DNA from: an uncultured Spartobacteria bacterium
Lineage (GTDB): Bacteria; Verrucomicrobiota; Verrucomicrobiia; Chthoniobacterales; Chthoniobacteraceae
NCBI GenBank assembly: GCA_903901425.1
Contig: CAIURC010000220.1
Span: 1-41,360 of the forward strand
Direction of reading: 5' to 3'
Length of the DNA stretch: 41,360 bases
This document shows, in pieces, positions 5,431 through 41,360 of this stretch; the first letter of the stretch is position 1; each line of letters begins with the position of its first letter. Under the pieces are notes generated by a model. The model saw only the letters and a program-made list of their open reading frames with translations, was not told where the DNA came from and did no database searches. The position numbers and the translations under genes are program-made.

Positions 5431-6243
5431 GTGGCCAACCAAAACACGCCAAAGCAGGCTGAAAAAATCAGTGCGGATTGCCCGCACTGTGGTTTCAGCC
5501 AACTGGAGTCGGCTTACGCCAAGTCGACCTTCTGCCGGAAATGCGGAGAGCATTTCAACATCGAGAAGTTGCTTCTGAAGGAAGCGACGAGCCTCAAGGC
5601 TCCCTCGTTTTTAGACAAGCTCTCCAAACTCATCTCCGGCGAGAAGATCGTCGATGTCACGTGCTTCGGATGCGGCACCAAGCAGCAGGTCAGCTCCGAG
5701 GTCCAGTCGACCTCGTGCACTCACTGCGGGTCCTACATGGACCTCCGCGAGTTCAAGATCGCCGGACCCTTTGGGCGCAGTATCCAGACCCATGGACAGG
5801 TTGTCGTCACCCCCAAGGGAGACGTTGCCAGCTCCAGGATCGCCTGCGGTTCAGCCCTCATCGAGGGTAAGGTCAAGGGAAGCATCTTCTGCACCGGAAA
5901 CCTTCAGGTCCGGTTCCGGGGGAAGTTTCTGGGCTCGGTCGAGACCGAAAAACTGCAGGTCGAGAAGCGCAGTGACGTGGAGTTTGTGAGGCCAATCAAG
6001 GCGCGTGAGGTCGAGATCAACGGCAAGGTGACGGCTCGGATCCTGTGTGAAGGCAGGGTCACTATCGGTAAACACGGCCAATTGGATGGAACCATCCACG
6101 CCAAGTCGATTGCCGTCGAGAAGGGCGGCATTTTTACCGGCGATCTTCGGATCACGCCCGATCCTGGTGAACAGAAAGACGTTTTGGGATTCCACTCGGT
6201 GCCGCCCAACGGGAAGGAACCCGAAGGCGAAGACGAAATCTAG
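5431..6243 (+). CDS. Bactofilin-domain protein with two N-terminal zinc ribbons
   Basis: A 270-residue protein starting at GTG 5431. Two four-cysteine zinc ribbons come first: CPHC...CRKC (C17, C20, C35, C38) and CFGC...CTHC (C78, C81, C96, C99), separated by a Lys-rich linker. From about residue 110 to 245 it has bactofilin-type repeated turns (IEGKVKGSIFCTGNLQVRFR, VEINGKVTARILCEGRVTIG, LDGTIHAKSIAVEKGGIFTG). The tail is acidic (EGEDEI). Bactofilin domains polymerise; zinc ribbons usually bind nucleic acid or protein. The combination suggests a filament that recruits a partner, but this is inference. It lies 36 bases after a plain bactofilin gene and is likely in the same transcript. Normal bactofilins are 100-180 residues, so the extra length is the ribbon region. 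Confidence 0.85.
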   Translation: MANQNTPKQAEKISADCPHCGFSQLESAYAKSTFCRKCGEHFNIEKLLLKEATSLKAPSFLDKLSKLISGEKIVDVTCFGCGTKQQVSSEVQSTSCTHCGSYMDLREFKIAGPFGRSIQTHGQVVVTPKGDVASSRIACGSALIEGKVKGSIFCTGNLQVRFRGKFLGSVETEKLQVEKRSDVEFVRPIKAREVEINGKVTARILCEGRVTIGKHGQLDGTIHAKSIAVEKGGIFTGDLRITPDPGEQKDVLGFHSVPPNGKEPEGEDEI

Positions 6244-6280
6244 AAACCCAGCCTGTGGGTCACGTTCCCGGCTGCCGCCT

Positions 6281-6375
6281 CGATCCCTTCCGGGATCGCA
6301 TGATTTTTCACGAGGCAAACTGGTGGTGTCACTGCACGCCACGCACCGGCTCACGGCTGGGTTCCCTGCGGGAAC
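6281..6375 (-). repeat. Triple-palindrome intergenic repeat, copy 1
   Basis: Read on the minus strand, this stretch matches 34119-34214 along almost its whole length: a GTTCCC/GGGAAC palindrome, then CAGCCG, a GCCGGTG...GTGGCG hairpin block, a spacer rich in T/A, and a closing GATCCC/GGGATC palindrome (6281-6298 on the plus strand). In the central block this copy is more diverged (GCGTGCAGTGACACC against GCGCGAAGCGCCACC). It sits between convergent genes, the usual place for REP/BIME-like elements. No transposase or RAYT gene lies beside it. Confidence 0.75.
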
Positions 6376-6502
6376 TGGAAGGCTGTTGTATGGATTGTTT
6401 GCAGGAACTGCAGTGACCTGAGTTGTTGCCGGGAACCGATGGCGGGCCGAATTGGCTGCGTATCCAACGGTGCCTGACTTTGTTCCGGCAAGGAATGTGC
6501 GG

Positions 6503-6580
6503 AAATTCCTCCCTTCCAGAGGGGAGCGCCGCTTGTATCCGGGATGTAGCGCGAAGCGACACCCCCCCGGTCACGCGCAC
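6503..6580 (+). repeat. Degenerate relative of the triple-palindrome repeat
   Basis: The stretch reads CTCCCTTCCAGAGGGGAG, then a GCCG...CCGGG block and ATGTAGCGCGAAGCGACAC, then CCCCGG. In the same order the copy at 34119 has GGTTCCCGGAGGGAACC, GCCG..GCCGG, GTGTGGCGCGAAGCGCCAC and CACCGG. The GCGCGAAGCG core is identical. The closing GATCCC palindrome is missing. It may be a decayed copy or a different subtype. Confidence 0.4.
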
Positions 6581-6667
6581 CAAAAGGGCTCACCCCGGCA
6601 GGCGGTGACACAGACGCGGTAAGGGGCAACGGAGGGCAGACATTCGCGTCTGCTCACCGGTAATGAG

Positions 6668-7444
6668 TCACGGCTTCTTCGGTTCTGCAGGAGCAGATTC
6701 CGGTGCAGCGGGTGTTGCCGGAGCGACTGCAGGCGCGGATGGCGCTGCGGGAGTCGCCGCAGCAGGAGTGGAGGGAGCGGGAGCTGGGGTGGCAACCGGG
6801 GCTGGATCTTTTGCGGGCTCTGGAACCGAAGGCTTGAGTTTCTGGAGTTCGTCGAGGGCCTGTCTGGAGAACCTGGACTGTCCGAACTGGGAGAGCACCT
6901 GTTCAAGCAAGGGGCGGGCTTGGTCCGGTTGGTTCTTGGCTGCGTGGATTCTAGCCTGTCCGAGGAGGGCGAGCGGTATTGCGTAGCTGCCCGGGTAGGT
7001 GGCGTTGATTTTCTGGTAGGCGTTGAGCGCTTCGTCGGTTTTTCCCTGCAGTTCAAGGACCACCGCGATGCTGTTCCATGCGCCTGCCACCATTGGATGG
7101 CTGGGATGGTTGGCGGTAAACTGGCGGAGCGAAGCAAGGGCTTCATCGAGCTTGCCTTCCTTGCGCTGGGATTCGGCCAGGAGGAGAAGCGCGTTGGCGG
7201 CAACGGGCGATCCCGCAAACTCTTTGACCACGCGCTGCCAGTCTGCAGGCGACTTGGCGGCTGAGAACGCGTTGGCGGCCGATTGGCGGCTGCGGTAGGC
7301 AGCGTACTGGTAGATGGCGGATCCAACGAGCCCGGCCAGGGCCATCACCACCAGAAGCTTTACCTTGGCCTTGTGTTCAATCCAGAAGGCGAGTGGGTCA
7401 AATCCGGGTTCCGGGGTGGACGGGGTTTCAGCGGGCGTGGACAT
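6668..7444 (-). CDS. Single-pass membrane protein with tetratricopeptide repeats (YfgM-like)
   Basis: A 258-residue protein. A short cytoplasmic Pro-rich start is followed by one membrane helix at about residues 28-50 (LLVVMALAGLVGSAIYQYAA). TPR-like helical repeats run to about residue 200: WQRVVKEFAGSPVAANALLL, then GKLDEALASLRQFTANHP, then GKTDEALNAYQKINATYPGS. The tail is a low-complexity Ala/Pro/Thr stretch. The order helix-then-TPR resembles YfgM and related periplasmic TPR proteins that assist envelope protein folding, but similarity is of layout and not enough to name it. It is the last gene of the run from 10849, 45 bases after the beta-helix protein. The Ala/Pro tail at the DNA level is a GC-rich simple repeat and may vary between strains. 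Confidence 0.75.
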   Translation of the reverse strand: MSTPAETPSTPEPGFDPLAFWIEHKAKVKLLVVMALAGLVGSAIYQYAAYRSRQSAANAFSAAKSPADWQRVVKEFAGSPVAANALLLLAESQRKEGKLDEALASLRQFTANHPSHPMVAGAWNSIAVVLELQGKTDEALNAYQKINATYPGSYAIPLALLGQARIHAAKNQPDQARPLLEQVLSQFGQSRFSRQALDELQKLKPSVPEPAKDPAPVATPAPAPSTPAAATPAAPSAPAVAPATPAAPESAPAEPKKP

Positions 7445-7489
7445 AAAGGGGTGAGGCTTTCAAACGGGATGCGTGAGCGCAAGCCCGGA

Positions 7490-8167
7490 TCAGTCGCGTC
7501 GCGCGGTGACCTGGAAGGACTGGTGCGTCTTGATGAGAGAGTTGGCGGGTGCAACGCCGCGCCATTGGGAGCCCGGGTAGAGCACGGATCTTCGGCCAAT
7601 GATCGAACCGGGATTGATGACCGAGTTGCAGCCGATCTCGGCGTGGTCGCCGATGATGGCGCCGAACTTTCGGAGGCCGGTGGGGACAAAGCCTTCGGGG
7701 GTGGCCACGGTGATCTCGCGGTGGTCGAGTTTGACGTTGGAAAGGATCACGCCAGCGCCCAAGTGCGCCCGGTACCCGAGAATGGAGTCGCCCACGTAGT
7801 TGAAGTGCGGCACTTGGGCTTCGTCCAGAAGGACACAGTTTTTGAACTCGCACGAGTTTCCGAGCACACAGCCGGAGCCGATCACCACGTTCTCGCGGAT
7901 GTAACAGCCGCTCCGGATTTCGCACCCCTCACCGATCCACGCCGGCCCCTTGATCATGGCGCCCTGTTCCACGACGGTCCCAGGTCCGATGAACACGGCG
8001 CCGCTGATGAACGGTTTTCCAATCAGCCGCGCGTGGATCGCCGGCTGGAGTCGGAACTGGAGGTAGCTGCTGATCTGTCCGAGGGCATCCCAGACGTTGC
8101 CGATGTTTTCGAAAAGTGTCCGGTGCTCGGTGTGATGAAGGTCAAGGTAGTCTTCGGGAGAAAACAT
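7490..8167 (-). CDS. Left-handed beta-helix nucleotidyl/acyltransferase-like protein
   Basis: About 225 residues from ATG 8167 (MFSPEDYLDLHHTEH). The body is made of hexapeptide turns: ISGAVFIGPGTVVEQGAMIK, GPAWIGEGCEIRSGCYIREN, VVIGSGCVLGNSCEFKNCVL. This is the left-handed beta-helix fold of GlmU C-terminal domains and related acetyltransferases. An extra loop (DEAQVPHFNYVGDSILGYRA) matches the GlmU-type segment in which His and Tyr contact acetyl-CoA/sugar. The N-terminal pyrophosphorylase domain of GlmU is absent. It may be a glucosamine-1-phosphate or similar sugar acetyltransferase; the substrate is not clear. A longer frame opens at 8248 but overlaps cysS, so 8167, 30 bases after the cysS stop, is preferred. 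Confidence 0.8.
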   Translation of the reverse strand: MFSPEDYLDLHHTEHRTLFENIGNVWDALGQISSYLQFRLQPAIHARLIGKPFISGAVFIGPGTVVEQGAMIKGPAWIGEGCEIRSGCYIRENVVIGSGCVLGNSCEFKNCVLLDEAQVPHFNYVGDSILGYRAHLGAGVILSNVKLDHREITVATPEGFVPTGLRKFGAIIGDHAEIGCNSVINPGSIIGRRSVLYPGSQWRGVAPANSLIKTHQSFQVTARRD

Positions 8168-8196
8168 GGGGAGTTGGGTGGGGAGCCAGCCGTCCG

Positions 8197-9600
8197 CTAC
8201 TGGGCTGGCATGAGTTTCTGGCCATCCTTGGTATCCTTCAAGCTCCAACCCAGTGCGTGGATTTTGTCGCGGAGTTGGTCGCTGAGTGCCCAGTCCTTGG
8301 AGGCCCTCGCCTTCGCCCGTTGTTCGACCAGTGCGGCGATTTCAGCCGGGATCTCCTGGGCGTACGGTTCGAAAGCCAGCACCTGGTTGATTCGGGTCCA
8401 TGCTTGGAGCAGGGATGCGGCTTGGCCGCGGGAAAGCGCGCCGGAATCCATGGCTTTGTTGGAGTCGCGGACAAGATCAAAGAGGCAGCCCAGTGCGGCG
8501 GAAATGTTCAGGTCATCGTCCAGGAGGTCCAGGAACCGGTCGGAAGCTGCCGAGAGCGGGGTCGGTTCAGGAGCCGTGTTTCCGGCGTATTCGGTGAGGC
8601 GTGCGGTCCACTGGTCGAGACGTGCGAGGGCGGTGCGGGCGGCATCAAGGCCAGCCAGGGTGAAGTTGCACGGAAGCCGGTAGTTGACGGTGATGAGGGC
8701 GTACCGAACCTCGCGTCCGGTGTAGCCGCGGCCGGTCAGGTCCCGGAGCGTATAAAAGTTGCCAAGCGACTTCGACATCTTCTGGCCGTCCACCATGAGG
8801 TGCGCGCAGTGGAGCCAGTAGCGGACAAACGTGCGGCCAGTGCAGCATTCCGATTGCGCAATCTCGGCCTCGTGATGGGGGAAAATGTTGTCGACGCCGC
8901 CGCAGTGGATATCGAGCTCCGGGCCGAGGAGTTCTGTGGCCATGGCGCTGCATTCGATGTGCCACCCGGGCCTGCCACGGCCCCAGGGCGAGTCCCATGC
9001 CACGTCACCGTCATTTTCGTCCCATGCCTTCCAGAGGGCGAAATCGCCGACGCTTTCCTTTTCGTACTCGTCGTTCCGGATACGGCCACTGGGCCGGAGA
9101 TCCTCAAGGTTGAGGTGTGCGAGTTGGCCGTAGCGCGGGAAATGGGAGAGGCGGAAATACACCGAGCCGTCCTCGGCCTTGTAAGCGGCTCCCTGGTTCT
9201 CGAGTTGCGCGATCATTTGGATCATGCGCTGGATGTACCGGTCCTCGGTGGCCGCGGGGTAATGGAGCGCGGGCCGGATTCTGAGGGTGGCGATGTCTTC
9301 AAAAAACGCCTGTTTGTAGACTTGGGTGAAATCGGCGAGTGGGCGTCCGGCTTTTCTGGAGTCGCGGATGGTTTTGTCGTCGACGTCAGTGAGGTTCATC
9401 ACGCGGAGGACATGGTATCCCCGGGCTTCTAGGTGGCGCTGGAGCAGATCCTCAAAGAGATAGGCGCGGAAGTTGCCGATGTGGGCGTGGTTGTAGACGG
9501 TGGGACCGCAGGTGTACATGCGGACCGTGCGTCCCTCCAGATCGAGGGGGGTAAACACTTCCGCGCGGCGTGAAAGCGTATTGAAAAATTCGAGGGCCAT
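8197..9600 (-). CDS. cysS: Cysteine--tRNA ligase
   Basis: A 467-residue class I aminoacyl-tRNA synthetase that charges tRNA-Cys. Signatures: YTCGPTVYNHAHIGNFRAYL near the start (zinc ligand C31; HIGH-type motif H40-N43), VMNLTDVDDKTI, GWHIECSAMA with the second zinc Cys, GGVDNIFPHHEAEIAQSE with the zinc His, and KMSKSLGNFYTL as the KMSKS loop. The anticodon-binding C-terminal helical part ends with the usual RDKIHALGWSLKDTKDG. Length is normal. Its ATG overlaps the ispF stop by one base (TGATG), so it is translationally coupled to isoprenoid synthesis genes upstream. Confidence 0.98.
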   Translation of the reverse strand: MALEFFNTLSRRAEVFTPLDLEGRTVRMYTCGPTVYNHAHIGNFRAYLFEDLLQRHLEARGYHVLRVMNLTDVDDKTIRDSRKAGRPLADFTQVYKQAFFEDIATLRIRPALHYPAATEDRYIQRMIQMIAQLENQGAAYKAEDGSVYFRLSHFPRYGQLAHLNLEDLRPSGRIRNDEYEKESVGDFALWKAWDENDGDVAWDSPWGRGRPGWHIECSAMATELLGPELDIHCGGVDNIFPHHEAEIAQSECCTGRTFVRYWLHCAHLMVDGQKMSKSLGNFYTLRDLTGRGYTGREVRYALITVNYRLPCNFTLAGLDAARTALARLDQWTARLTEYAGNTAPEPTPLSAASDRFLDLLDDDLNISAALGCLFDLVRDSNKAMDSGALSRGQAASLLQAWTRINQVLAFEPYAQEIPAEIAALVEQRAKARASKDWALSDQLRDKIHALGWSLKDTKDGQKLMPAQ

Positions 9601-10106
9601 CAGGCGTTCGGGGATGAGGAGCTGGATTCTTCCGGGACAAAGACGCTGGCTACGGCCATGGCTGCGATCCCTTCGCGGCGGCCCAGAAAACCCATGCGTT
9701 CATTTGTGGTGGCCTTGATCCCGACCCGGGCAGGGGGAAGGCCCAGCACTTGGCTGATCCGGGTCCGCATGGGGTCCAAGTGCGGTGCGATCTTGGGCGC
9801 CTCGCTCACCAGGGTGACATCCACGTTCACAATCTTTGCGCCCTGATTTGCAAGCACCGCAACCACTCGCGAAAGGATTTCAAGGCTGCTAATCCCACGG
9901 ATGCTTTCATCGGTGTTCGGGAAATGATGGCCAATGTCGCGTTCGCCTACCGCGCCCAAAAGCGCATCTGCGACGGCATGACAGAGCACATCCGCATCAG
10001 AGTGGCCATCAAGGCCGTGCGTGTGCGGTATTTCGACTCCGCCGAGAATGAGTGGGCGGCCTTCCACGAGGCGGTGGACGTCGTAGCCGATGCCAACAAG
10101 GTTCAT
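9600..10106 (-). CDS. ispF: 2-C-methyl-D-erythritol 2,4-cyclodiphosphate synthase
   Basis: A 168-residue enzyme of the non-mevalonate isoprenoid (MEP) pathway; it cyclises CDP-ME 2-phosphate with release of CMP. It shows GIGYDVHRL with the zinc Asp9 and His11, the ILGGVEIPH strand, GLDGHSDADVLCHAVADALL, GERDIGHHFPNTD and the C-terminal KATTNERMGFLGRREGIAA. ATG 10106 is chosen because the protein then starts with the family's usual MxxVGIGYDVH; it also gives a four-base ATGA overlap with the inositol monophosphatase stop. The last residues (ESSSSSPNA) are not conserved. IspD is not next to it, although ispD and ispF are often adjacent. Confidence 0.98.
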   Translation of the reverse strand: MNLVGIGYDVHRLVEGRPLILGGVEIPHTHGLDGHSDADVLCHAVADALLGAVGERDIGHHFPNTDESIRGISSLEILSRVVAVLANQGAKIVNVDVTLVSEAPKIAPHLDPMRTRISQVLGLPPARVGIKATTNERMGFLGRREGIAAMAVASVFVPEESSSSSPNA

Positions 10107-10849
10107 GCTTCCAATTCCAGGACGCCGTTCCATGCGCGCACCGAGATTTTCTGGGGGTTATCCTCGCGGGGAACAGACTGGAAGATTCCGCCGGCGCCCT
10201 CGACGAGGAGTTTGCCTGCGGCGACGTCCCAGAGGCTCACGGCCTGTTCGATGTATGCGTCCAGACGGCCGCAGGCGACATAGGCGAGGTCGAGTGCGGC
10301 GCTCCCCATGAGGCGGCATTTCCGCGCGCGTTGAACGTAGTGCTCGAGCAGGGGCATCCCGGCGTTGATCGTGGCCTTGGTCTTGGAAAATCCGACGGAA
10401 AGAATGGCATCGCTCAGGCGGGTCCGCTGGCTGACCCGCACGGGTTTGCCATTGAGCGTCGTTGGGGAGCCCTTCTCAGCGGCCCAGAGTTCATTGCGCA
10501 TCGGATCGAGGATGACGCCGGCAACAATGTCCTCTCCGTGTTTGAGTGCGATCGAAACACAGAAATGCGGGACGCCGTAGAAGTAGTTGACGGTGCCGTC
10601 GATGGGATCGACGACCCACTGGAAAGGGCTGTCAGCGCAGCCGGCTACACCTTCCTCGCCGAGAATGGCGTGGTCTGGAAACTGGGCGAGGAGTTTCTGA
10701 GTGATGAGATCCTGACTGCGGACATCGAGTTCGAGTTTGATGTCGTGTGCTTCAAAGGCGTTGACGTCCAGTGTGCCGCCGAAATTTTGGCGGAGGAGAT
10801 CGCCGGCGGCGAGTGCGGCTTCAATTGCGGTTTGGAGAGGCGTTTTCAT
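10103..10849 (-). CDS. Inositol monophosphatase family protein (SuhB-like)
   Basis: A 248-residue Mg-dependent phosphatase of the IMPase/FBPase superfamily. The metal site is complete: GEEG (about 64-67), DPIDGTVNYFYGVP (about 81-94) and LWDVAAGKLLVEGAGG near the C-terminus, with RLMGSAALDLAYVACGRLDAY as the usual preceding segment. It hydrolyses inositol-1-phosphate or similar sugar phosphates; in several bacteria SuhB also acts on rRNA transcription, which cannot be judged here. It is the first gene of a packed run leading to ispF and cysS, overlapping ispF by four bases. A strong terminator at 10892-10932 separates it from the histone-like gene upstream, so it should have its own promoter in the roughly 40 bases before 10849. 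Confidence 0.93.
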   Translation of the reverse strand: MKTPLQTAIEAALAAGDLLRQNFGGTLDVNAFEAHDIKLELDVRSQDLITQKLLAQFPDHAILGEEGVAGCADSPFQWVVDPIDGTVNYFYGVPHFCVSIALKHGEDIVAGVILDPMRNELWAAEKGSPTTLNGKPVRVSQRTRLSDAILSVGFSKTKATINAGMPLLEHYVQRARKCRLMGSAALDLAYVACGRLDAYIEQAVSLWDVAAGKLLVEGAGGIFQSVPREDNPQKISVRAWNGVLELEA

Positions 10850-10891
10850 GGAGAATCATTTCCGGTTGGGGACGGCGGGAGGAATAGATAG

Positions 10892-10932
10892 AAAAAGGAA
10901 ATGGGAGGAGAAATGAATTTCTCCTCCCATTT
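10892..10932 (-). terminator. Rho-independent terminator of the histone-like gene
   Basis: A perfect 16-base inverted repeat, AAATGGGAGGAGAAAT (10899-10914) with its complement at 10917-10932 and a two-base centre. On the minus strand it is followed by CC and five T residues. It lies 38 bases after the stop of the histone-like gene, before the inositol monophosphatase gene on the same strand. Confidence 0.8.
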
Positions 10933-10970
10933 GAACTTTCAACGGTCAGGGGACCAGAGCCTGAATCGGA

Positions 10971-11237
10971 TCAGGCCTTCTTTGAAGCGGCCTTCTTGGC
11001 TGCAGGCTTCTTCGCAGCAGCCTTCTTCGCAGCAGCCTTCTTCGGAGCCGCAGCCTTTTTGGGTGCAGCCGCCTTCTTCGGAGCCGCAGCTTTTTTCGGT
11101 GCAGCCGCCTTCTTCGGAGCCGCAGCTTTTTTTGGTGCAGCTGCCTTTTTAGGAGCCGCGGCCTTCTTGGGCGCGGCGGCTTTTTTCGGTGCTGCCTTCT
11201 TCGGTGCTGGCTTTGCGGCAGGTTTCTTAATTGCCAT
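10971..11237 (-). CDS. Histone H1-like Lys/Ala/Pro-rich DNA-binding protein
   Basis: An 88-residue, highly basic protein with almost no residues other than Ala, Lys and Pro. After MAIKKPAAKPAPKK and AAPKK come eight exact AAAPKK units, then AAAKK, AAAKK, PAAKK and AASKK. This composition is that of eukaryotic histone H1 tails and bacterial H1-like proteins, which bind and compact DNA without a fold. The mature function is therefore probably nucleoid condensation or regulation, by family analogy. It has a good ribosome-binding site (AAGGGGGG before ATG 11237), a plausible promoter at 11322-11350 and its own perfect terminator, so it is a single-gene transcript. The repeat number is likely to vary between strains through slippage in the DNA repeat. 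Confidence 0.85.
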   Translation of the reverse strand: MAIKKPAAKPAPKKAAPKKAAAPKKAAAPKKAAAPKKAAAPKKAAAPKKAAAPKKAAAPKKAAAPKKAAAKKAAAKKPAAKKAASKKA

Positions 11238-11321
11238 TGAGTATCCCCCCTTTCGAACCGCAGGAGCGGTCTACAGAAAATTTTCGGAACGGTGACGGAA
11301 GTGGTTCCACGCTGGTCTTTT

Positions 11322-34104: not shown

Positions 34105-34525
34105 ACGCGTCTGGCTTTCCGGTTCCCGGAGGGAACCCAGCCGTTAGCCGGTGTGTGGCGCGAAGCGCCACCACCGGAAAGCGTTTTTCAAAAGGCACGA
34201 TCCCGGAGGGATCGAAGAGGCCGCCCTCAAAACGGGAGCAAAGATCGGCGGGTTTTTCCCCCCACCGCCGCCCACCGTTTACCAAACCCCCGCATCTGTT
34301 GGCGCCCGCCCAATCGTTTTCTTGCGTACCAACCGGGGGCCGCGTCCCAGGTCCGACTGCCGGCGGCGTTCCCTTTAAAGACGGGAAGATTCTGGGCCCG
34401 CAATGGCTCTGTTCCAAAACCGCGGCCTTGCCAACCGGGTCTTCCGTGTGTCCTTTTCTCGTGTCCAGATCCGGACCGAACGCCCCGCTCCATCCCGACC
34501 GCCATTCTCACCGCCCCTCATTCTC
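34105..34525. other. Intergenic stretch before the glycosyltransferase cluster
   Basis: No supported gene. It starts with the palindromic repeat copy 2 (34119-34214). The remainder, up to the start at 34526, is GC-rich with C-runs, is open in one frame by chance, and would hold the promoter of the glycosyltransferase genes; I cannot point to a convincing -35/-10 pair. Confidence 0.5.
34119..34214 (+). repeat. Triple-palindrome intergenic repeat, copy 2
   Basis: Three hairpins in a row: GGTTCCCGGAGGGAACC (34121-34137), a central GGTGTGTGGCGCGAAGCGCC hairpin block with GAA loop extending to CACCACCGG (34149-34177), and CGATCCCGGAGGGATCG (34198-34214), with a T-rich spacer between the second and third. 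Copy 1 at 6281-6375 has the same order on the opposite strand. This copy is the better preserved one. Confidence 0.8.
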
Positions 34526-37500
34526 ATGCCCAAAGTAGGACCAGATCTCGAAAAACTCGTGCTGGAAGGGGTTCAGCTCCAGGGCGCCGGACGTGTGGAC
34601 GAAGCCCGAAAGGCGTTTGATCAAGCGCTCAAGCTCGATTCCAAACACGCTGTTGCTCTCTATTCACTCGCCGCCATTCATCTCAACTTGGGCAACGCCT
34701 CCAAGGGACTCGACTTCGCCAAACGCTGCGTCCGAAGCGCCCCCGCAGCCGGCCTGTCCTGGTTCATTCAAGGAATGGCGTTGAAGGTCACTGGCCGGCT
34801 CTCCGAGGCGGAGGAAAGTTTCGCCCGGGCCCTCGCGATTGATCCCAACCACGTCGAGGCCCTTATGGAAACCGGGGTCCTGCTCATGGCCCGGAACGAA
34901 CCTGCCCGCGCGCTCTCCCAGTTCGAACGGGTGCTCGCGCTCCAACCCGGACACGCCTTAGCCGCCAAACACCGCGACACCCTGAAGTCCGGGCTCCCTG
35001 CTGCCAGCGAGCCCCCCATGGACCGCGTCCTGCGCGGACTCCAGCTCCAGGGCGAAGGCCGGGTCCAAGAGGCCCAGGCGGTGTTCCGCGAGATCGTGGC
35101 CACGCACCCGCGCCATTTCATCTCCCTGTATTCGCTTGCAGCCATGTCCCTGAACGAGGGCCGGGCGCAGGACGGTTTGGAGTACGCGCAACGCTGTCTC
35201 GATGCCGAGCCGGGGCACGCCTTTGCATGGTACATCTGCGGCTGCGCCTACAAGGCGCTCCGGCAGTTTCCAGAGTCGCTCACTCACCTCGACCGCGCAC
35301 TCCAGATCCAGCCCAACTACAAGGAGGCCTACTTCGAACGCGGCATCCTGTTCGGCGAACTCAAGGATTACTACCAGTCCCTGGCCATGTTCGAGAAAGT
35401 CATCGAGCTGGATCCTGTCCACAGGTTGGGCCTGCTCAACGCCGCCACCTCCCTCACCATCGTCAAACGGAACGCCGACGGCGCGGCGATGTTCGAACGC
35501 CTCCTCGCCGTCGATCCCGAACACGATTACGCCCTTTCCCAACTCAACCACGCCCGGCTCCACGGCTGCGACTGGCGCGATTTCCATGCCAATCGCGCCA
35601 CCATCATCGAACGCGTCCGGCAGGGGAAACGGGCTGCCAAATCGCTCTCGTTCCTCGCCATCTCCGACTCGCCCGAGGACCAGTGGATCTGCGCAAAAAC
35701 GTTCACCGCACAGGCTTATCCATCCCAGAAAACCCATTTCTGGAACGGCGAAAAATACCGGCACGCTCGGATCCGGATCGGCTACGTTTCTCCGGATCTC
35801 CGCGAACATCCCGTGGGCCACCTCATGGCCGGCGTGTTTGAGTGCCACGACAAAAGCCGGTACGAACTCCACGCGTTCTCCCTCGGAGTCGATGACCGCG
35901 GCGTTCTCCGCAGCCGGTTCATGGCGGCCTGCGACCAGTTCCATGATGTCCGCGGACGCAGTTCCCGCGAGATCGCCCAGTTGATCCGGGAATCCGAGAT
36001 CGACCTCGTCGTCGATCTCGCCGGTCCCACCATGGACGCACAGCCCGACATCTTTGCGTTCCGGCCCGCTCCCATCCAGGTCATGTACCTCGGGTACCCC
36101 GGCACCAGCGGCGCGGATTACTTCGATTACCTGCTCGCCGACGAAACGGTGGTGCCCGACGAAAGCCGGAAATTTTACTCGGAGGAAGTCATCGCGCTTC
36201 CCGGGTGTTACCTGCCCACCGACGCCACCGTGAAAGTCGCCGAACGGACACCGACCCGGTCCGAAATGCTGCTTCCGGAACAGGGGTTCGTGTTCTGTTC
36301 TTTCAACCACGATTACAAGATCAACCCCGACGTTTTTGATGTCTGGATGCGGATTTTGAAACGCGTGGAGGGCAGTGTCCTGTGGTTGATGAAACTCAAC
36401 GAGGCCGCTGAAAACAACCTCCGCAAAGAGGCCGAGGCCCGCGGGGTTTCCGCCAGCCGCCTCATCTTTGCCACTCGGGTTCCCGCTGTGGAGGATCATC
36501 TGGCGCGGTACCGCCTTGCCGGCCTGTTCCTCGACACCACCCCCTATAACGCGCACACCACCGCCACCGACGCCATGCGGGCCGGACTCCCCGTCCTCAC
36601 CGTGGAGGGCAAAAGTTTCCAGAGCCGCGTCGCCACCAGCATCCTGCGGACCGTTGGCATGCCGCAACTGGCGGTTCCCAGTCTTGCCGAGTACGAGGAC
36701 CTCGCCGTCGCACTCGCCCATGATCCCATCCGGCTCGCTGCGCTCAAACAGGAGCTGCAGGAAAAACTCAAAACCTCCTCGCTGCTCGATACCCCGCTCA
36801 TCACCCGCCGGATCGAGGCCGCATTCGAACAGATGCTGGCACGGGGCGGGAAAAAAGTGGCGGATCCAGCTCCCGTGGATCTTCCTTCGGCTCCGTCGAT
36901 TCCCGGGAGGGTCGAACGCGCAACCGACCCCGTGCCGGTGGCGGTTGCCCCTCCGCAACCCCGGATCGAAATCGGCCGCGGGCCGCGCAAGATTCTCGTG
37001 GCGGGTTGCGCACGGGATTGCGGTAAACATTTGCCGCGGATTTTTGAAAACCTGCGTGCACTGGCACCGGCAGTGGGCGAACTCGCGTTGCTGTTTGCCG
37101 AGAACGATTCCCGGGACGACACCGTGGCGGTGCTCCAGGCGCAGGCTTCCCAGTGGCCGGCTTTTCAGGTGGTGCCGCTGGGCGCCGTTGAAACGAGGCT
37201 GCCTCAGCGGACCGTCCGTATCGCCCATGCCCGGAACGTCCTGCTCGAGTGGGCCAGACAATGGCGCGGAGTCGAGCAGTACCAGTACGTGATGCTCATG
37301 GACCTGGACGATGTGGCCGTCCGCCCCCTGGACACGCGGGCCCTCCTGCAGACTCTGGATTTCCTCGATGCCTCAGACCGCGCCGTGGCGGGGTTCGCCA
37401 ACCAACTCGGCCTCTACTACGACATGTGGGCGTTGCGTCATCCGCACCATTGTCCCGTCGATATTTGGGAAGCGGCTCTGGATCACCAAAACGCGCACGG

Positions 37501-37843
37501 TTGCTCCAACGAGGCTGCTTTCGAGGCCGTGGTCCGGCCCCGGATGTTTCGGATCGATCCCGCCATGGCGCCGCTCCCGGTCGAGTCGGCGTTTGGCGGG
37601 CTCGGCCTGTACAAGATGGGCGCTTACCTTGCCGCCCCGAATCCCTACCTAGGCAGCCGGGTGAAAGTCGTTTCCAAAGGCGCGGCAAGGTCCGTTGCGA
37701 ACATCCAGACCTGCGAGCATGTCCATTTCCATGCCGGTCTCAGGGCGAAGGGCGGCGAACTCTACGTGTTTCCGGGCCTCGTCAACGGCGACATGACCGG
37801 TTACGGATTCAATCCGGGCACCATGGCGAGCCTGATCTTCTAG
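34526..37843 (+). CDS. TPR / OGT-type (GT41) / third glycosyltransferase-like domain fusion
   Basis: A 1105-residue protein. Residues about 1-390 are tetratricopeptide repeats, such as GRVDEARKAFDQALKLDSKH and FPESLTHLDRALQIQPNYKE. Residues about 415-775 are an O-GlcNAc-transferase/SPINDLY domain. It has RIRIGYVSPDLREHPVGHLM with the catalytic-region His, APIQVMYLGYPGTSGADYFD, FCSFNHDYKINPDVFDVWMR with the UDP-contact Lys, and LDTTPYNAHTTATDAMRAGL. A Pro-rich linker follows. Residues about 820-1105 are a further domain: KILVAGCARDCGKHLPRIFE, LLFAENDSRDDTVAVLQ, and YVMLMDLDDVAVRPLD with a DxDD metal-type site; then GLYYDMWALRHPHHCPVDIW. This looks like a nucleotide-sugar transferase, distantly like Cap59/CMT1 proteins. 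The GT41 part would add a sugar to protein Ser/Thr; the last domain could extend it. ATG 34526 begins the first TPR. The next gene starts 11 bases on. Confidence 0.85.
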   Translation: MPKVGPDLEKLVLEGVQLQGAGRVDEARKAFDQALKLDSKHAVALYSLAAIHLNLGNASKGLDFAKRCVRSAPAAGLSWFIQGMALKVTGRLSEAEESFARALAIDPNHVEALMETGVLLMARNEPARALSQFERVLALQPGHALAAKHRDTLKSGLPAASEPPMDRVLRGLQLQGEGRVQEAQAVFREIVATHPRHFISLYSLAAMSLNEGRAQDGLEYAQRCLDAEPGHAFAWYICGCAYKALRQFPESLTHLDRALQIQPNYKEAYFERGILFGELKDYYQSLAMFEKVIELDPVHRLGLLNAATSLTIVKRNADGAAMFERLLAVDPEHDYALSQLNHARLHGCDWRDFHANRATIIERVRQGKRAAKSLSFLAISDSPEDQWICAKTFTAQAYPSQKTHFWNGEKYRHARIRIGYVSPDLREHPVGHLMAGVFECHDKSRYELHAFSLGVDDRGVLRSRFMAACDQFHDVRGRSSREIAQLIRESEIDLVVDLAGPTMDAQPDIFAFRPAPIQVMYLGYPGTSGADYFDYLLADETVVPDESRKFYSEEVIALPGCYLPTDATVKVAERTPTRSEMLLPEQGFVFCSFNHDYKINPDVFDVWMRILKRVEGSVLWLMKLNEAAENNLRKEAEARGVSASRLIFATRVPAVEDHLARYRLAGLFLDTTPYNAHTTATDAMRAGLPVLTVEGKSFQSRVATSILRTVGMPQLAVPSLAEYEDLAVALAHDPIRLAALKQELQEKLKTSSLLDTPLITRRIEAAFEQMLARGGKKVADPAPVDLPSAPSIPGRVERATDPVPVAVAPPQPRIEIGRGPRKILVAGCARDCGKHLPRIFENLRALAPAVGELALLFAENDSRDDTVAVLQAQASQWPAFQVVPLGAVETRLPQRTVRIAHARNVLLEWARQWRGVEQYQYVMLMDLDDVAVRPLDTRALLQTLDFLDASDRAVAGFANQLGLYYDMWALRHPHHCPVDIWEAALDHQNAHGCSNEAAFEAVVRPRMFRIDPAMAPLPVESAFGGLGLYKMGAYLAAPNPYLGSRVKVVSKGAARSVANIQTCEHVHFHAGLRAKGGELYVFPGLVNGDMTGYGFNPGTMASLIF

Positions 37844-37854
37844 CCGCCCCAAAA

Positions 37855-38796
37855 ATGGAACAGTTCACCAGTCTCGTTTCCAGCCGCGGCATCCTGAAAT
37901 CTTGTGCCCTGCACAACCGCCAGCCGGTTTCGAGCAGTCCCCTGGTGGACGCCAGTCTGATCCAGGCCACGCCTGGGGTTCCCAGTGTGTATGTCTGCAC
38001 CGACGCACTCGCCGTGTTTGCGCTGGAAACGCTCCCCCGGATCGAACAGCCGTTCGTGCTCGTTACCGGCGATAGTGACCGTCCCGTGGATGAGCGGCTC
38101 CTCCGCGATCCCCACGTGGAACGGATTCTGGGCAGCTCCCTGCTGCGGGGGTGGTTCGCGCAGAACCTCTGCGCGGATTTTCCGGGGCTGCATCCGCTCC
38201 CCATCGGACTCGATTATCACACCATGACGGAACGGACCGGTTTCTGGGGGCTCGGGACAATTTCACCGATGGCTCAGGAGCACCAACTCTTCGGGATCCT
38301 TGCCGGGGCGCGCTCGTTTGAAAAGCGGTATGTGGCGGCGTACTGCAACTGGCATTTCCAGATCGACCGTGGCGACCGGCGGGAATGCATGGACGGAGTG
38401 GAAAAAGCAGCCTGTTTTTTCGAGCCGAACCCTGTCCCGCGCAAGACCACGTGGGAACGCCAGGCCGAGATGATGTTTGTGCTGAGTCCGAGCGGAGGCG
38501 GCATGGATTGTCACCGGACTTGGGAAGCGCTGGCCCTCGGGTGCGTGCCCGTGGTCCGGGACGGCCCGCTGCGCCGGGTTCTGGAGGGGTTGCCCTGCAT
38601 CTTTGTGAACGACTGGCGCGAAGTGACCCGGAAATTTCTGCTCGAACAGGCGCAGGTTTTTGCCGGTGGGAAGTACGATTTCAGCGGGCTGTTCCGCGAA
38701 ACCTGGATGCGCCGGATCCGCGGGGAGGGGGAGAGTTCAGGAATGCAATCGAATTTGTGCGAGCACAGGCAACACTTGACCGGGAATATTTCTTGA
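37855..38796 (+). CDS. Exostosin-like (GT47-type) glycosyltransferase
   Basis: A 313-residue protein. The recognisable part is the C-terminal half: FFEPNPVPRKTTWERQAEMM, FVLSPSGGGMDCHRTWEALA, LGCVPVVRDGPLRRVLEGLP and CIFVNDWREVTRKFLLEQAQ. This pattern of SP-G-G-DCHR-WE-L-G-P-V and W-V is that of the exostosin domain (GT47), also found in bacterial capsule and surface-glycan clusters. The N-terminal half (VYVCTDALAVFALETLPRIE) has no clear motif. It likely transfers a sugar to a growing glycan in the cytoplasm. ATG 37855 starts 11 bases after the three-domain protein, so the two are probably one transcript. The last 15-20 residues (GMQSNLCEHRQHLTGNIS) fall where base composition changes and are not family-like. 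Confidence 0.72.
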   Translation: MEQFTSLVSSRGILKSCALHNRQPVSSSPLVDASLIQATPGVPSVYVCTDALAVFALETLPRIEQPFVLVTGDSDRPVDERLLRDPHVERILGSSLLRGWFAQNLCADFPGLHPLPIGLDYHTMTERTGFWGLGTISPMAQEHQLFGILAGARSFEKRYVAAYCNWHFQIDRGDRRECMDGVEKAACFFEPNPVPRKTTWERQAEMMFVLSPSGGGMDCHRTWEALALGCVPVVRDGPLRRVLEGLPCIFVNDWREVTRKFLLEQAQVFAGGKYDFSGLFRETWMRRIRGEGESSGMQSNLCEHRQHLTGNIS

Positions 38797-39218
38797 TGCC
38801 GAATAGCTCCCATGCTCGGCCCACAAAGTGCTAGCCGCGATGGCAGGTTTATTGTACTAGATGAAAAGCAAAAAATTTGTCCCTTAAGATGCCGTTGTTG
38901 GTGAACCATGCCGCCGTGTGTGGCTTGTTCAGCCGTCAGGCATCCGACTGTGTGAAGGGGGGCGCGGCGGGAGCATCAAACACGGGCGCTATTGGACCTT
39001 TAGTCACTACCAGGTGAGACAGTTCTAGTGCCCGTCAACACGCGGTCTTTAAATCCAAAAACACCCCAAGAAAACCAAGGTTAATGTAGGCGGAATCCTT
39101 GTGTTCAAAAGCTAGCAATTTTATTGGTCTTCGATTACGGTATTGCGTACAATCATGTTCTTGTTGTAGTGCGAATTGGTTTAAATTAATTAAGGTTCAC
39201 TCTCGTAAGGGACGTATT
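38797..39218. other. A+T-richer intergenic stretch at a composition boundary
   Basis: No supported gene, tRNA or repeat found. The base composition changes here from strongly G+C-rich to nearly balanced. The region carries many stop codons in all frames. It may be a recombination junction at the left edge of imported sequence. Confidence 0.5.
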
Positions 39219-39875
39219 ATGAAAGCTTATCTAATTCACAAGCGCGGTTATACTGAACGGTTTGGACAGATCATTGCAAACCTTTACAACACAATTTCTT
39301 TGAGTCGAGTTGAAATCGTTTTCGCTGAGGCCAGTTCTCTTGTTTTTCCAGAGACTGACGAGCACTTGATTCATGAGTGGATGCGGACATACATCAAATC
39401 TGAAGTGCCGTTGTTTGGGAGGATCACGGCGCCTGAGCAGTCTCTATTTCACAAGCATTATGTCGCATTTTCTGATATAGCGGAATCTGGAAATCCGGGA
39501 CTTGTGTTTGAGGACGATGCGCAGTTTCATCCGGCTGATTTGGACCGATTTATTAGCCAGATCAGTCAGATTCCTCCAGGTTGGGATTTCGTATATTTTG
39601 GTACAGGTTGTGGGCTTCGTGCTAGCGGGAATGGGTTTATCAGACGGACGGAGGATTTAAAGGGAAAGTGCACTGACAGCATGCTGGTCAGTCCTGAGGC
39701 AGCCTCCCGAATCGTGCGTGATTGGAATAAGGGTGGCGTCTTTTTGCCTGTCGACTGGGATTTGAATGTCCGATTGAATAAGTTCGAGATGAATGTATAC
39801 TGGTTTGAACCAGCATTTGTTGTTCAGGGAAGCCAGAATGGGAGGTTTTCCTCTGAGATTCGTACTTCACAGTGA
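39219..39875 (+). CDS. Glycosyltransferase family 25-like protein
   Basis: A 218-residue protein resembling the GT25 (LPS/LOS glycosyltransferase) family. It begins MKAYLIHKRGYTERFGQIIA, contains EQSLFHKHYVAFSDIAES, the acidic motif GLVFEDDAQFHPADLDRFIS (the EDD nucleotide-sugar/metal site), DFVYFGTGCG, CTDSMLVSPEAASRIV and FLPVDWDLNVRLNK (matching the usual PVDW-x-x-N block), and ends YWFEPAFVVQGSQNGRFSSE. GT25 enzymes transfer galactose or similar sugars to LPS or to protein. An AAGGGA ribosome-binding site lies seven bases before ATG 39219, unlike the SD-poor genes around. Codon use is A/T-richer than in the genes before 38750, which suggests recent transfer. The frame is open to 39099 without relatedness. 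Confidence 0.75.
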   Translation: MKAYLIHKRGYTERFGQIIANLYNTISLSRVEIVFAEASSLVFPETDEHLIHEWMRTYIKSEVPLFGRITAPEQSLFHKHYVAFSDIAESGNPGLVFEDDAQFHPADLDRFISQISQIPPGWDFVYFGTGCGLRASGNGFIRRTEDLKGKCTDSMLVSPEAASRIVRDWNKGGVFLPVDWDLNVRLNKFEMNVYWFEPAFVVQGSQNGRFSSEIRTSQ

Positions 39876-40015
39876 ATTTTGTGGTCCGGTTCGGTCGGGT
39901 CATCATCGGAACCATCTTGCTCTTGAGGTAGTTGAATGCTCTGTGTGCTTTACAATGTGGGCCTTGCTCTTGTTGATGAAGCGCTTTGAATAAGGGGAAG
40001 TGTTGTAAAAAAAAT

Positions 40016-40600
40016 ATGAAGAACATTTTTTTAGACTGCGGAACTCATCTTTGCGAAGGAATCATAAAATTTTACAACGCAGGAATTATCAACGACTCAT
40101 TTGAAATCCACGCATTTGAGGCGAATCCTGCATGCATGATTGGACAGCGAGTGAAAAAAATCCCGCTCAATATCTACCCGCATGAGGCTGCAGTTTGGGT
40201 TGATGACGGTTTTGTAGCTTTCAACCAAGAGAACCATTTAAAATCAGGAACGGGATCGCCTTCAGACGGGTATTCTCATGTGGATGGATGGGGAAGTTCT
40301 GTGGCAGGTATTGGGTTTGAACATTTGGGGTACGATTCAAATGTAATCACTCCAAGTATTAATTTTAGCCGTTTTTTAAACGAACTTCCGCATGATGCAA
40401 ACATTGTTTGTAAAATGGACATCGAGGGTAGCGAATTTAGGGTGCTGCGACATTTGATAAAGGAGGGCAGTATCCGGAGGCTCAGCAGCATTTACGTCGA
40501 GTTTCATTCACGTTTTATGCCGGCGGAAACCAGCGCAACCGAAAAAGATCTTGTCGATGCGATTTCAAGTCTAGGTGTTAAGGTCTTCACTTGGTTCTGA
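40016..40600 (+). CDS. FkbM family methyltransferase
   Basis: A 194-residue SAM-dependent methyltransferase of the FkbM type. It has the SAM-binding strand and loop IFLDCGTHLCEGIIKFY, the acidic second motif FEIHAFEANPACM, NIYPHEAAVWVDDGFVAFNQ as the third strand region, SRFLNELPHDANIVCKMDIE with the KMDIEGSE motif, and SSIYVEFHSRFMP near the end. FkbM proteins O-methylate sugars or polyketides; in glycan clusters they usually cap or decorate a sugar. It is shorter than typical FkbM proteins (about 230-280), lacking some of the C-terminal part, and the stop is 10 bases before the presumed ISL3 end, so the stop is native or nearly so. The start ATG 40016 follows an AAGGGGAAG site some 15 bases upstream; TTG 39986 is an alternative. 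Codon use is A/T-rich like the GT25 gene. Confidence 0.8.
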   Translation: MKNIFLDCGTHLCEGIIKFYNAGIINDSFEIHAFEANPACMIGQRVKKIPLNIYPHEAAVWVDDGFVAFNQENHLKSGTGSPSDGYSHVDGWGSSVAGIGFEHLGYDSNVITPSINFSRFLNELPHDANIVCKMDIEGSEFRVLRHLIKEGSIRRLSSIYVEFHSRFMPAETSATEKDLVDAISSLGVKVFTWF

Positions 40601-40610
40601 GAATGTCCAA

Positions 40611-41226
40611 GGGCTCTTTGCGGATTTTGGTGGGTTGGAAAGGTGGGACATTGGCAAAAACCGGGGTGGACGAATCCGATCGAGCCCTCTTCGAGTGCTC
40701 ACGTGAAGAGGCTGTTAAAGGACCCCGCCTAGGAGTTGATCCAGGTGGACTTGAGCACCCTAAAGATGAATCTGGATTTTGGGGTGGAGTGGGGGATTGC
40801 CGGGGCGATTTGTGCAGAGTGTGGCAAAAAGTGTACTCGCCATGATCTGGCTCCGGAGCGCCGGTGGCGGCATCTGGACGCCATGGGATTCGAGACCCAG
40901 ATTGTATCGCGCACTCCGAGAGCGAATTGCGGAGAGCACGGGATTCACCAGATGAAGGTGCCTTGGGCGGGTAAACACAGCCGGTTCACCCTGGCCTTTG
41001 AGGCGTTGGCGATCAAAGTGCTGCAGGCTTGTCGGAGCGTCAAAGCGGCCTGCGAGCTGCTGAAGATCAACTGGGATGCTGCGCAGGAGATTATGAAGCG
41101 TGCGGTCAAGCGCGGCGAAGAGTGCCGCGTTTTGGATCAACTCAAAGCGGTGGGTCTGGATGAGAAGAGCTTCCACCGGGGGCAGAGTTATGTGTCGGTG
41201 ATGGTGGATCTTGAGCGGGGAGCACC
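40611..41226 (+). mobile_element. ISL3-type insertion sequence, left part only
   Basis: A likely left end beginning GGCTCTTTGCGGATTTTGG (from about 40612), a style seen at ISL3 family ends, followed by a transposase gene that stops at about 41226. The right half is not in the window. The right end and any 8-base target duplication cannot be seen. Confidence 0.5.
40703..41226 (+). pseudogene. ISL3-family transposase, interrupted
   Basis: The first part of an ISL3 transposase. It shows the N-terminal zinc-finger CAECGKKCTRHD, then RRWRHLDAMGFETQIVSRTP, RANCGEHGIHQMKVPWAGKH and SRFTLAFEALAIKVLQACRS with the helix-turn-helix, and the start of the catalytic domain in LKAVGLDEKSFHRGQSYVSV and MVDLERG with the first Asp. 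After LERGA the similarity ends at about 41226 and the frame meets TAA at 41228-41230, so the DDE domain is broken. A GTG at 40703 gives MKRLLKDPA, then an in-frame TAG at 40730, and then ELIQVDLSTLKMNLDF; ISL3 proteins often have Trp at that position. The stop could be a TGG-to-TAG change, or translation could begin at TTG 40736. Both features point to an inactive gene. Confidence 0.75.
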
Positions 41227-41360
41227 GTAACCATATGGGCAACCCCATCTGGCGGTCGGTCTGGGAGGGTTAGAGAGTGCGGGGATGAAATTCCATTCCA
41301 GTCGGAGGAAGCGGCGGAGCGAGGTCGAGATTCGGGAACTGCTCGAGCGCTATCACCGGA
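41227..41360 (+). mobile_element. Left end of an IS66-type element (continues past the window)
   Basis: A sequence starting GTAACCATATGGGCAACCCC exactly where the ISL3 transposase loses its frame. IS66-family ends begin with GTAA, and the reading frame inside, from ATG 41285, resembles the small IS66 accessory protein. The right end is outside the window, so the insertion cannot be confirmed by a target duplication here. Confidence 0.5.
41285..41360 (+). CDS. IS66 accessory protein TnpA-like, N-terminal fragment at window edge
   Basis: Only 25 codons are visible: MKFHSSRRKRRSEVEIRELL, then ERYHR. A basic start followed by a helix of the type EIRELLERYH is how IS66 TnpA-like and other small helix-turn-helix IS proteins begin. 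The frame stays open at the right edge. Too short for a certain family call; the surrounding GTAA end supports IS66. Confidence 0.45.
   Translation, partial: MKFHSSRRKRRSEVEIRELLERYHR

Follow-up and report, generated by a model that had tools for sequence, protein, structure and literature searches.

The window analyzed here is the whole 41,360-nucleotide stretch of contig CAIURC010000220.1 (assembly GCA_903901425.1, positions 1 to 41,360, forward strand) from an uncultured Spartobacteria bacterium of the family Chthoniobacteraceae. One of its genes encodes, in a single chain, an arm of tetratricopeptide repeats (TPRs), a catalytic domain of glycosyltransferase family 41 (GT41) and, past a linker, a second transferase domain of the GT-A fold. 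We tentatively read the product as a cytoplasmic two-step protein O-glycosyltransferase whose most likely substrate is an exported protein built of ALTTAQ repeats, a combined reading that we hold to be about evenly balanced between right and wrong. The domains, the GT-A fold, the catalytic positions, the variation of the C-terminal module among relatives, an unfused neighboring pair in another genome and the linkage to ALTTAQ genes come from sequences and structural models, and from them we infer activity, step order, sugars and substrate. In the proposed scheme, the TPR arm would hold the substrate, a giant Thr/Ser-rich ALTTAQ-repeat protein, in the cytoplasm; the GT41 domain would add the first sugar to its Thr or Ser residues; the tethered GT-A domain would follow with another sugar on this protein, either the next in the chain or a different second one; and the product of the RXYLT1-like gene 11 bp downstream may contribute one more, all before type I (ABC-HlyD) export.

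Pfam model PF13844 (Glyco_transf_41) scores 283 bits on the window protein against a cut-off of 25, behind many Pfam TPR matches, as an earlier note made from the letters alone had described. The best relatives of solved structure are human OGT, XcOGT and SPINDLY (SPY), and the domain matches XcOGT by phmmer at 2.2e-78. Alignments with XcOGT and human OGT place H428, K598, Y674, H677, T678, T679 and D682, and the earlier claim that key OGT residues are kept stands for the catalytic lysine K598 and the H677-T678-T679 block. H428 and K598, which we take to be the equivalents of human OGT H498 and K842, are present in 23 of 23 sequences (the window group and ALTTAQ-linked set, described below, and locus L016; L, G and C numbers are our labels for loci, genomes and contigs). 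From its sequence the domain is predicted, very probably, to be active as a protein O-glycosyltransferase. K598 also aligns with SPY K665, mutation of which abolishes activity according to the available part of PMC9715652. Position 674 is tyrosine, as in SPY (Y744) and XcOGT (Y463), where human OGT has Cys917. The same part of that source takes the tyrosine of SPY as an obstacle to UDP-GlcNAc, which is only a hint that the first sugar may perhaps be other than GlcNAc, and a weak one because Tyr or Phe is usual there (60 of the 62 other GT41s compared). No second GT41 was found in the window genome, which is 96% complete in 224 contigs, the contig with the fusion gene being C220.

The earlier note had also suspected a sugar transferase at the C-terminus. 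Structure prediction and structural search returned a GT-A fold and not a fold foreign to glycosyltransferases; because the last 286 residues model in this way, they form a sugar-transferase domain, the third domain of the protein as the note had counted it and only the second glycosyltransferase. The AlphaFold model of the isolated domain has a predicted local distance difference test score (pLDDT) of 84.3 and a predicted template modeling score (pTM) of 0.86. Foldseek found 193 matches at E <= 0.001, and the 50 listed are glycosyltransferases or proteins with such a domain. VIA-align ranks yeast Mnn9 first (Z 16.9, root-mean-square deviation 3.9, 227 residues), tied within 1 with PcManGT (16.5), COLGALT1 (16.4) and LH3 (16.3). 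The blocks DSxDxT, DxD, ANQ, YYDxWALR, SAFGG and CEH are invariant in an alignment of six members of the C-terminal family. By its model the domain is a GT-A glycosyltransferase with the DxD metal motif intact, and sequence and model together predict, with high confidence, an active transferase.

Membership in GT69, the CAP59/CMT1 family raised by the note, was not established. Pfam model PF11735 (CAP59_mtransfer) reaches 24.5 bits (E 2.4e-5) on the isolated domain and 24.2 bits on the full protein, under its cut-off of 28.8, and the assignment was rejected on that score; four of the six family members match the model. We take PF11735 CAP59/CMT1 to be GT69 and Mnn9/Anp1 to be GT62, the latter a candidate family for the window domain; the known CAP59/CMT1 and Mnn9 members are fungal. 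The window domain resembles these proteins in its weak PF11735 similarity and in having Mnn9 as its top structural match, but it differs in falling below the Pfam cut-off and in the tied structural ranks. Searching PDB by sequence alone gave nothing useful (best E 1.5, an oxidoreductase). No relatives of the domain came from a single-sequence scan of genome contigs, an alignment scan of viral contigs or tblastn of phages, and no other genome among 288 sampled from the phylum had a strong match, PF11735 at a loose cut-off giving fragmentary matches below the cut-off in 6. Weak partial matches to the family profile in 17 further genomes (E 7.6e-5 or worse) are ordinary GT2-type in appearance and were not counted as relatives.

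What follows the GT41 core varies among the window protein's relatives. GT41 matches at E 1e-10 or better occur in 20 of the 40 genomes of the window's family, and 63 GT41 open reading frames (ORFs) were compared. Four of these belong to other families of the order; three run off the 5' end of their stretch and two the 3' end; a partial match (G359:C564) was left out. More than 100 residues follow the core in 7 of the 63, and 0 to 80 in the other 56. The seven are the window protein, L054 and five that bear a GT4 domain (Glycos_transf_1: L056, L086, L087, L088 and L107). L054, from G304 of the same genus, is the nearest relative, with the same TPR-GT41 body and a core 76% identical; its similarity to the window protein ends at about residue 787 by translated DNA or about 808 by protein comparison (43% over 53 residues). 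Its own C-terminal domain has no detectable similarity to that of the window protein and matches no Pfam model or PDB sequence, and a DVD motif seen by eye suggests that it too may be a transferase. Three further orthologs of the same family (L055, L083, L084; cores 64-67% identical) end 17 residues past the core with no extension. The five orthologs group at 100/100 in the tree, next to the GT4-bearing group at 97/91, within a group of 10 at 94/79, called here the window group; in a larger tree that includes plasmid GT41s, the GT4-bearing group joins some plasmid sequences instead. Fragments under 250 or 300 residues were excluded from the trees. The search for the same extension in Verrucomicrobiota relatives, which the earlier note had proposed, thus found fusion at the same site, with other modules.

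Two of these loci deserve a remark of their own. The product of L087:2905-6864 (TPR-GT41-GT4, 1320 aa) continues at its C-terminus for about 290 more residues that no Pfam model matches. The L054 ortholog has a giant Ig/cadherin/LVIVD-repeat gene on one side (L054:1-4968) and, on the other (8689-11313), genes for a nucleotide-sugar dehydratase-like enzyme and a DegT aminotransferase. This giant Ig/cadherin protein and the TonB-like genes (by eye) that adjoin the G334 and G349 orthologs were weighed as possible substrates or context and dropped, because neither is common to all orthologs.

Two Neorhizobium plasmids and five named genomes carry homologs of the C-terminal domain, the close relatives being stand-alone genes in Proteobacteria. 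Of these seven homologs, six are ORFs of their own with 269-288 residues; the match in L018 covers the later portion of a frame of 439 residues with an uncertain start. The closest, at 40% identity, is L016 from an uncultured proteobacterium (5992-6855), and within 12 bp of it lies a convergent, stand-alone TPR-GT41 gene (6867-8939) whose product, among 76 GT41 proteins compared, best matches L054 and the window protein. The other six loci showed no GT41 in the 8-13 kb read. That genes adjacent in L016 are fused in the window is good evidence for a shared pathway, and we think it probable that the GT41 and C-terminal domains act on one glycan or protein. The earlier idea of a self-contained O-glycosylation machine is therefore upheld as regards coupling, by the L016 pair and by the other domains fused at the same place, and doubtful as regards "self-contained", given the third transferase-like gene 11 bp downstream.

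The proposed substrate emerged from gene neighborhoods. In G340, the end of a Thr/Ser-rich repeat gene, an ABC exporter, an HlyD gene and the ortholog L083 follow one another in that order, and the repeat is Pfam PF20080, ALTTAQ_rpt. PF20080 matches occur in 13 of the 40 family genomes, including that of the window, where contig C16 carries a 731-codon ALTTAQ fragment of 27 repeats and, after it, genes for an ABC exporter and HlyD; the repeat-ABC order recurs in G304, G349 and G334. GT41s of the window group occur in 9 of the 40 genomes, and ALTTAQ genes are present in 9/9 of these against 4/31 of the others (p 2.6e-6). Leaving out G340, where the idea originated, ALTTAQ is present in 8/8 against a background of 12/39 genomes (p 8e-6); the genomes of the five orthologs alone are positive in 5/5 (p 0.002), and those with other GT41s only, in 3/11. 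These p-values are too small because the genomes are related. At genus level, G000 and G304 have both the GT41 group and ALTTAQ while G337 and G338 have neither; G365 has both and its four congeners neither; and in a third genus six genomes have both, four ALTTAQ only and two neither. One positive genome, G344, was scored from the 5'-truncated L107, which was placed by its GT4 extension and not by tree. One ALTTAQ frame, L149-L150 (G341:C77), exceeds 6,600 codons; a simple pattern counts 269 copies of the motif in it, and Thr plus Ser make up 29%.

Physical linkage extends beyond the family. Related GT41s lie within about 5 kb of ALTTAQ genes in three Verrucomicrobiota loci: in G340; in G365, where about 20 bp separate the start of the group member L085 from an ALTTAQ gene of 3791 codons; and in G143, a genome of another family, where the two are under 90 bp apart. 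G143 and the window genome are the only ones with PF20080 among the 288 sampled from the phylum; in the control set, Caulobacter vibrioides matched PF20080 as well, a species that also has FlmG (it is the C. crescentus of PMC7591256). A plasmid search found PF20080 in 58 records, and from the 30 listed, 12 loci were chosen for taxonomic spread before their neighbors were known. Nine of the 12 have a GT41 within about 5 kb of the ALTTAQ gene, seven with less than 1 kb between the genes, while arbitrary 30-kb control stretches elsewhere on the nine positive plasmids contained a GT41 in 0 of 9. Where annotated, these plasmid GT41s are named O-linked (N-)acetylglucosamine transferase, TPR protein or glycosyl transferase, and type I secretion genes occur at four of the seven annotated loci (L165, L171, L172, L173). 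One linked locus belongs to a laboratory strain, Cereibacter sphaeroides 2.4.1, whose plasmid pA has the ALTTAQ gene next to a gene annotated as O-linked acetylglucosamine transferase. In the larger tree, a 99/99 branch separates the 12 ALTTAQ-linked GT41s and the 10 of the window group from 57 other sequences. We therefore regard it as somewhat probable that an ALTTAQ protein is the substrate of the window enzyme. The broader proposal, that ALTTAQ giants are a dedicated class of O-glycoproteins coated in the cytoplasm by TPR-GT41 enzymes and exported by type I systems, with one family swapping a plug-in C-terminal transferase, is more tentative, possible rather than probable. Titles and abstract openings in the open-licence literature yielded no report on such a fusion or on ALTTAQ glycosylation, nor was ALTTAQ exoproteins as a substrate class found in print by our searches of open-licence papers; two papers that contain the letters LTTAQ, among the 15 listed of 1,898, have titles on unrelated subjects.

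Several observations, the last of them concerning flagellin, weigh against this assignment. The exact order of TPR, GT41 and this GT-A domain has so far been met in the window protein only. No ALTTAQ gene is on the window contig among the matches listed; those of the window genome are on contigs C16, C174 and C82, cut by contig ends, and of the other four orthologs only that of G340 sits in an ALTTAQ locus. Three plasmid loci (L168, L169, L174) have no GT41 in the stretch. In the larger tree the window group is not a clade of its own but is split among the ALTTAQ-linked sequences, the group of 22 is supported at 81/73 only, and five divergent tandem sequences also lie on the window side of the 99/99 branch. 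The 12 ALTTAQ-linked GT41s from plasmids and G143 all lack a long fused domain, with 4 to 114 residues beyond the match, from which the fusion would be a local elaboration of a wider system. Flagellin, finally, is present in all nine genomes with window-group GT41s (9/9, against 10/31 of the others) and in all 13 ALTTAQ-positive genomes of the family. The ALTTAQ-GT41 pair of G365 (L147:6-5821) borders FliF and another flagellar basal-body gene, an ALTTAQ gene with GT41 on a Rhodovastum plasmid (L164) borders a flagellar gene cluster, and one ALTTAQ gene of G349 adjoins a flagellin gene.

These flagellar associations would fit the strongest alternative, a flagellin glycosyltransferase like Caulobacter FlmG, whose TPR arm would bind flagellin while GT41 starts the glycan and the second domain lengthens it. 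By the available part of PMC7591256, FlmG itself is a flagellin O-glycosyltransferase of the TPR/GT-B type; the window genome has two flagellin-domain matches (on other contigs) and one GT41 found, and across the family genomes with GT41 tend to have flagellin too (16/4/3/17, p 8.8e-5). Against this, no flagellin match lies on the five ortholog-bearing contigs, and within the 19 flagellin-positive genomes the window group still tracks ALTTAQ (9/9 against 4/10, p 0.011). Moreover, eight of the ten tandem two-GT41 genes of other branches are on contigs with flagellin, which suggests that flagellin is served by separate enzymes there. Flagellin stays a rival because co-occurrence cannot separate it from ALTTAQ, yet we judge it unlikely to be the substrate. 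The ten tandem genes themselves (L060, L093, L099, L109, L113, L115, L116, L117, L119 and L120, all on flagellin contigs except L109 and L113) are likely flagellin glycosyltransferases. One genome, G350 (loci L094, L105, L108 and others), has 18 GT41 matches but matches neither flagellin nor ALTTAQ; some GT41s must therefore act on other substrates.

If the two transferases were instead tethered for co-production, GT41 would modify a protein while the GT-A domain works on a separate glycan such as a surface polysaccharide. The Neorhizobium plasmid relatives of the GT-A domain do sit among methyltransferase and glycosyltransferase-like genes, with no GT41 in the stretch read, and a further transferase gene comes after the fusion gene in the window; the unfused adjacent pair in L016, together with related GT41s that carry glycosyltransferase domains of two or more kinds, nevertheless make such independence rather improbable. 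More improbable still is a regulatory enzyme like OGT or SPINDLY that places single sugars on cytoplasmic proteins and carries a non-catalytic binding module at its C-terminus. Overall similarity to OGT and SPINDLY and the tyrosine Y674 at the position of SPY Y744 (PMC9715652, available part) would fit it, but the invariance of DxD and DSxDxT in the C-terminal family makes decay unlikely, and related GT41s are linked to exported repeat proteins.

That an assembly error or frameshift merged two adjacent genes, as a 224-contig genome and an exact fusion met once might suggest, is hardly credible: GC content at third codon positions (GC3) is 0.77, 0.78 and 0.76 in the three parts of the gene, codon usage is alike, the linker looks natural, and the same-genus ortholog carries another domain fused at the same linker. 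No stop or frame break was seen within the gene, and there is no sign of a false join; the single chain that the earlier note described is open to its stop codon (37841-37843), and every sequence block named there was located in the translation (REHPVGH at residue 426, DYKINP at 596, HTTATD at 677, MDLDD at 925 and YYDMWALR at 964). An alternative in-frame ATG at 34403 would add 41 residues. The full-length model has helical repeats of high pLDDT in the TPR arm (about residues 10-140 and 170-275) and a linker below pLDDT 50 at residues 774-817, which is proposed from the model to tether the GT-A domain flexibly to GT41; its GT41 part is of low confidence, with only two sequences covering it, and no claim is drawn from it. 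As to the three-part order that the note found unusual, TPRs followed by GT41 are also bacterial (XcOGT; FlmG, PMC7591256, available part), so the C-terminal addition is the unusual part. Coordinates are collected in Table 1.

Table 1. Features of the fusion gene and its downstream neighbor (positions in the window; aa, residues of the fusion protein).
Feature	Coordinates	Strand	Basis
TPR-GT41-(GT-A) fusion gene	34526..37843	+	1105 aa, single open frame
TPR arm, two blocks and connector, aa 1-411	34526..35758	+	Pfam TPR matches; helical repeats in model
GT41 catalytic domain, aa 412-757	35759..36796	+	PF13844 profile; alignment with XcOGT and human OGT; residue counts
Pro/Ala-rich linker, aa 758-819	36797..36982	+	Similarity to same-genus ortholog L054 stops within linker
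C-terminal GT-A glycosyltransferase domain, aa 820-1105, 286 residues	36983..37840	+	Model, structural search and family alignment
MDLDD, DxD = D926, D928; probable metal/nucleotide-sugar site	37298..37312	+	Both Asp 6/6 in family
YYDMWALR family signature block	37415..37438	+	C-terminal family alignment
RXYLT1_C/exostosin-like glycosyltransferase gene	37855..38796	+	RXYLT1_C 27.9 bits, cut-off 27; 11 bp past fusion stop

The RXYLT1-like gene is probably co-transcribed with the fusion gene; in the 39 other family genomes it has only two short partial matches. Beyond it, at 38800-41360, GC content falls (47%, 46%, 43%) and codon usage diverges, and on these grounds the genes there are probably acquired glycan genes. 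The low-GC stretch holds a weak GT25-like ORF (39219-39872) and an FkbM methyltransferase (40016-40597), and a transposase-like ORF recognized by eye (40736-41227) has a GC content of 59% again. When 13 window genes were compared with the five ortholog stretches at E 1e-10, no shared neighbor was found beyond GT41.

Protein O-glycans are usually begun by one enzyme and lengthened by others. A chain that combines TPRs, an initiating GT41 and an exchangeable transferase would, if the reading is true, be a compact tool for making defined glycoproteins and a model for glycan diversity through domain swapping, in which one gene swap alters the outer sugar of a whole exoprotein coat. The ALTTAQ link, if true, would give a function to a Pfam repeat present on 58 plasmid records and would make the substrates of many bacterial TPR-GT41 enzymes testable in culturable strains of Rhizobium, Cereibacter and Pseudomonas.

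XcOGT, FlmG-like proteins and OGT/SPINDLY share with the window protein a TPR arm followed by a GT41 domain with the catalytic lysine and the HTT block; we know of no second transferase domain in XcOGT, OGT or SPINDLY. As far as the available parts of their sources extend, none of HMW1C, dGT1 and FlmG joins an initiating TPR-GT41 to a separate transferase. FlmG has a TPR domain and one glycosyltransferase domain (PMC7591256, available part), where the window protein has two transferases. HMW1C, also a GT41, works in the cytoplasm on an adhesin destined for export and forms protein-sugar as well as sugar-sugar bonds (PMC3983070, available part); it does so with a single transferase, on Asn, and with an AAD domain in place of TPRs, whereas the window protein has a separate GT-A domain and is expected to act on Ser/Thr. 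A further parallel is the Fap1/serine-rich repeat protein system of Gram-positives (Gtf12, Gtf3, dGT1), in which a repeat-rich, serine-rich adhesin is glycosylated stepwise inside the cell and then leaves by dedicated export; there dGT1 unites in a single chain the transferases of steps 3 and 4 (PMC5207161, available part). The window protein shares with dGT1 the two-transferase chain and differs in that dGT1 is not initiating, the initiator is another enzyme, and export is by accessory Sec there and, as proposed here, by a type I system.

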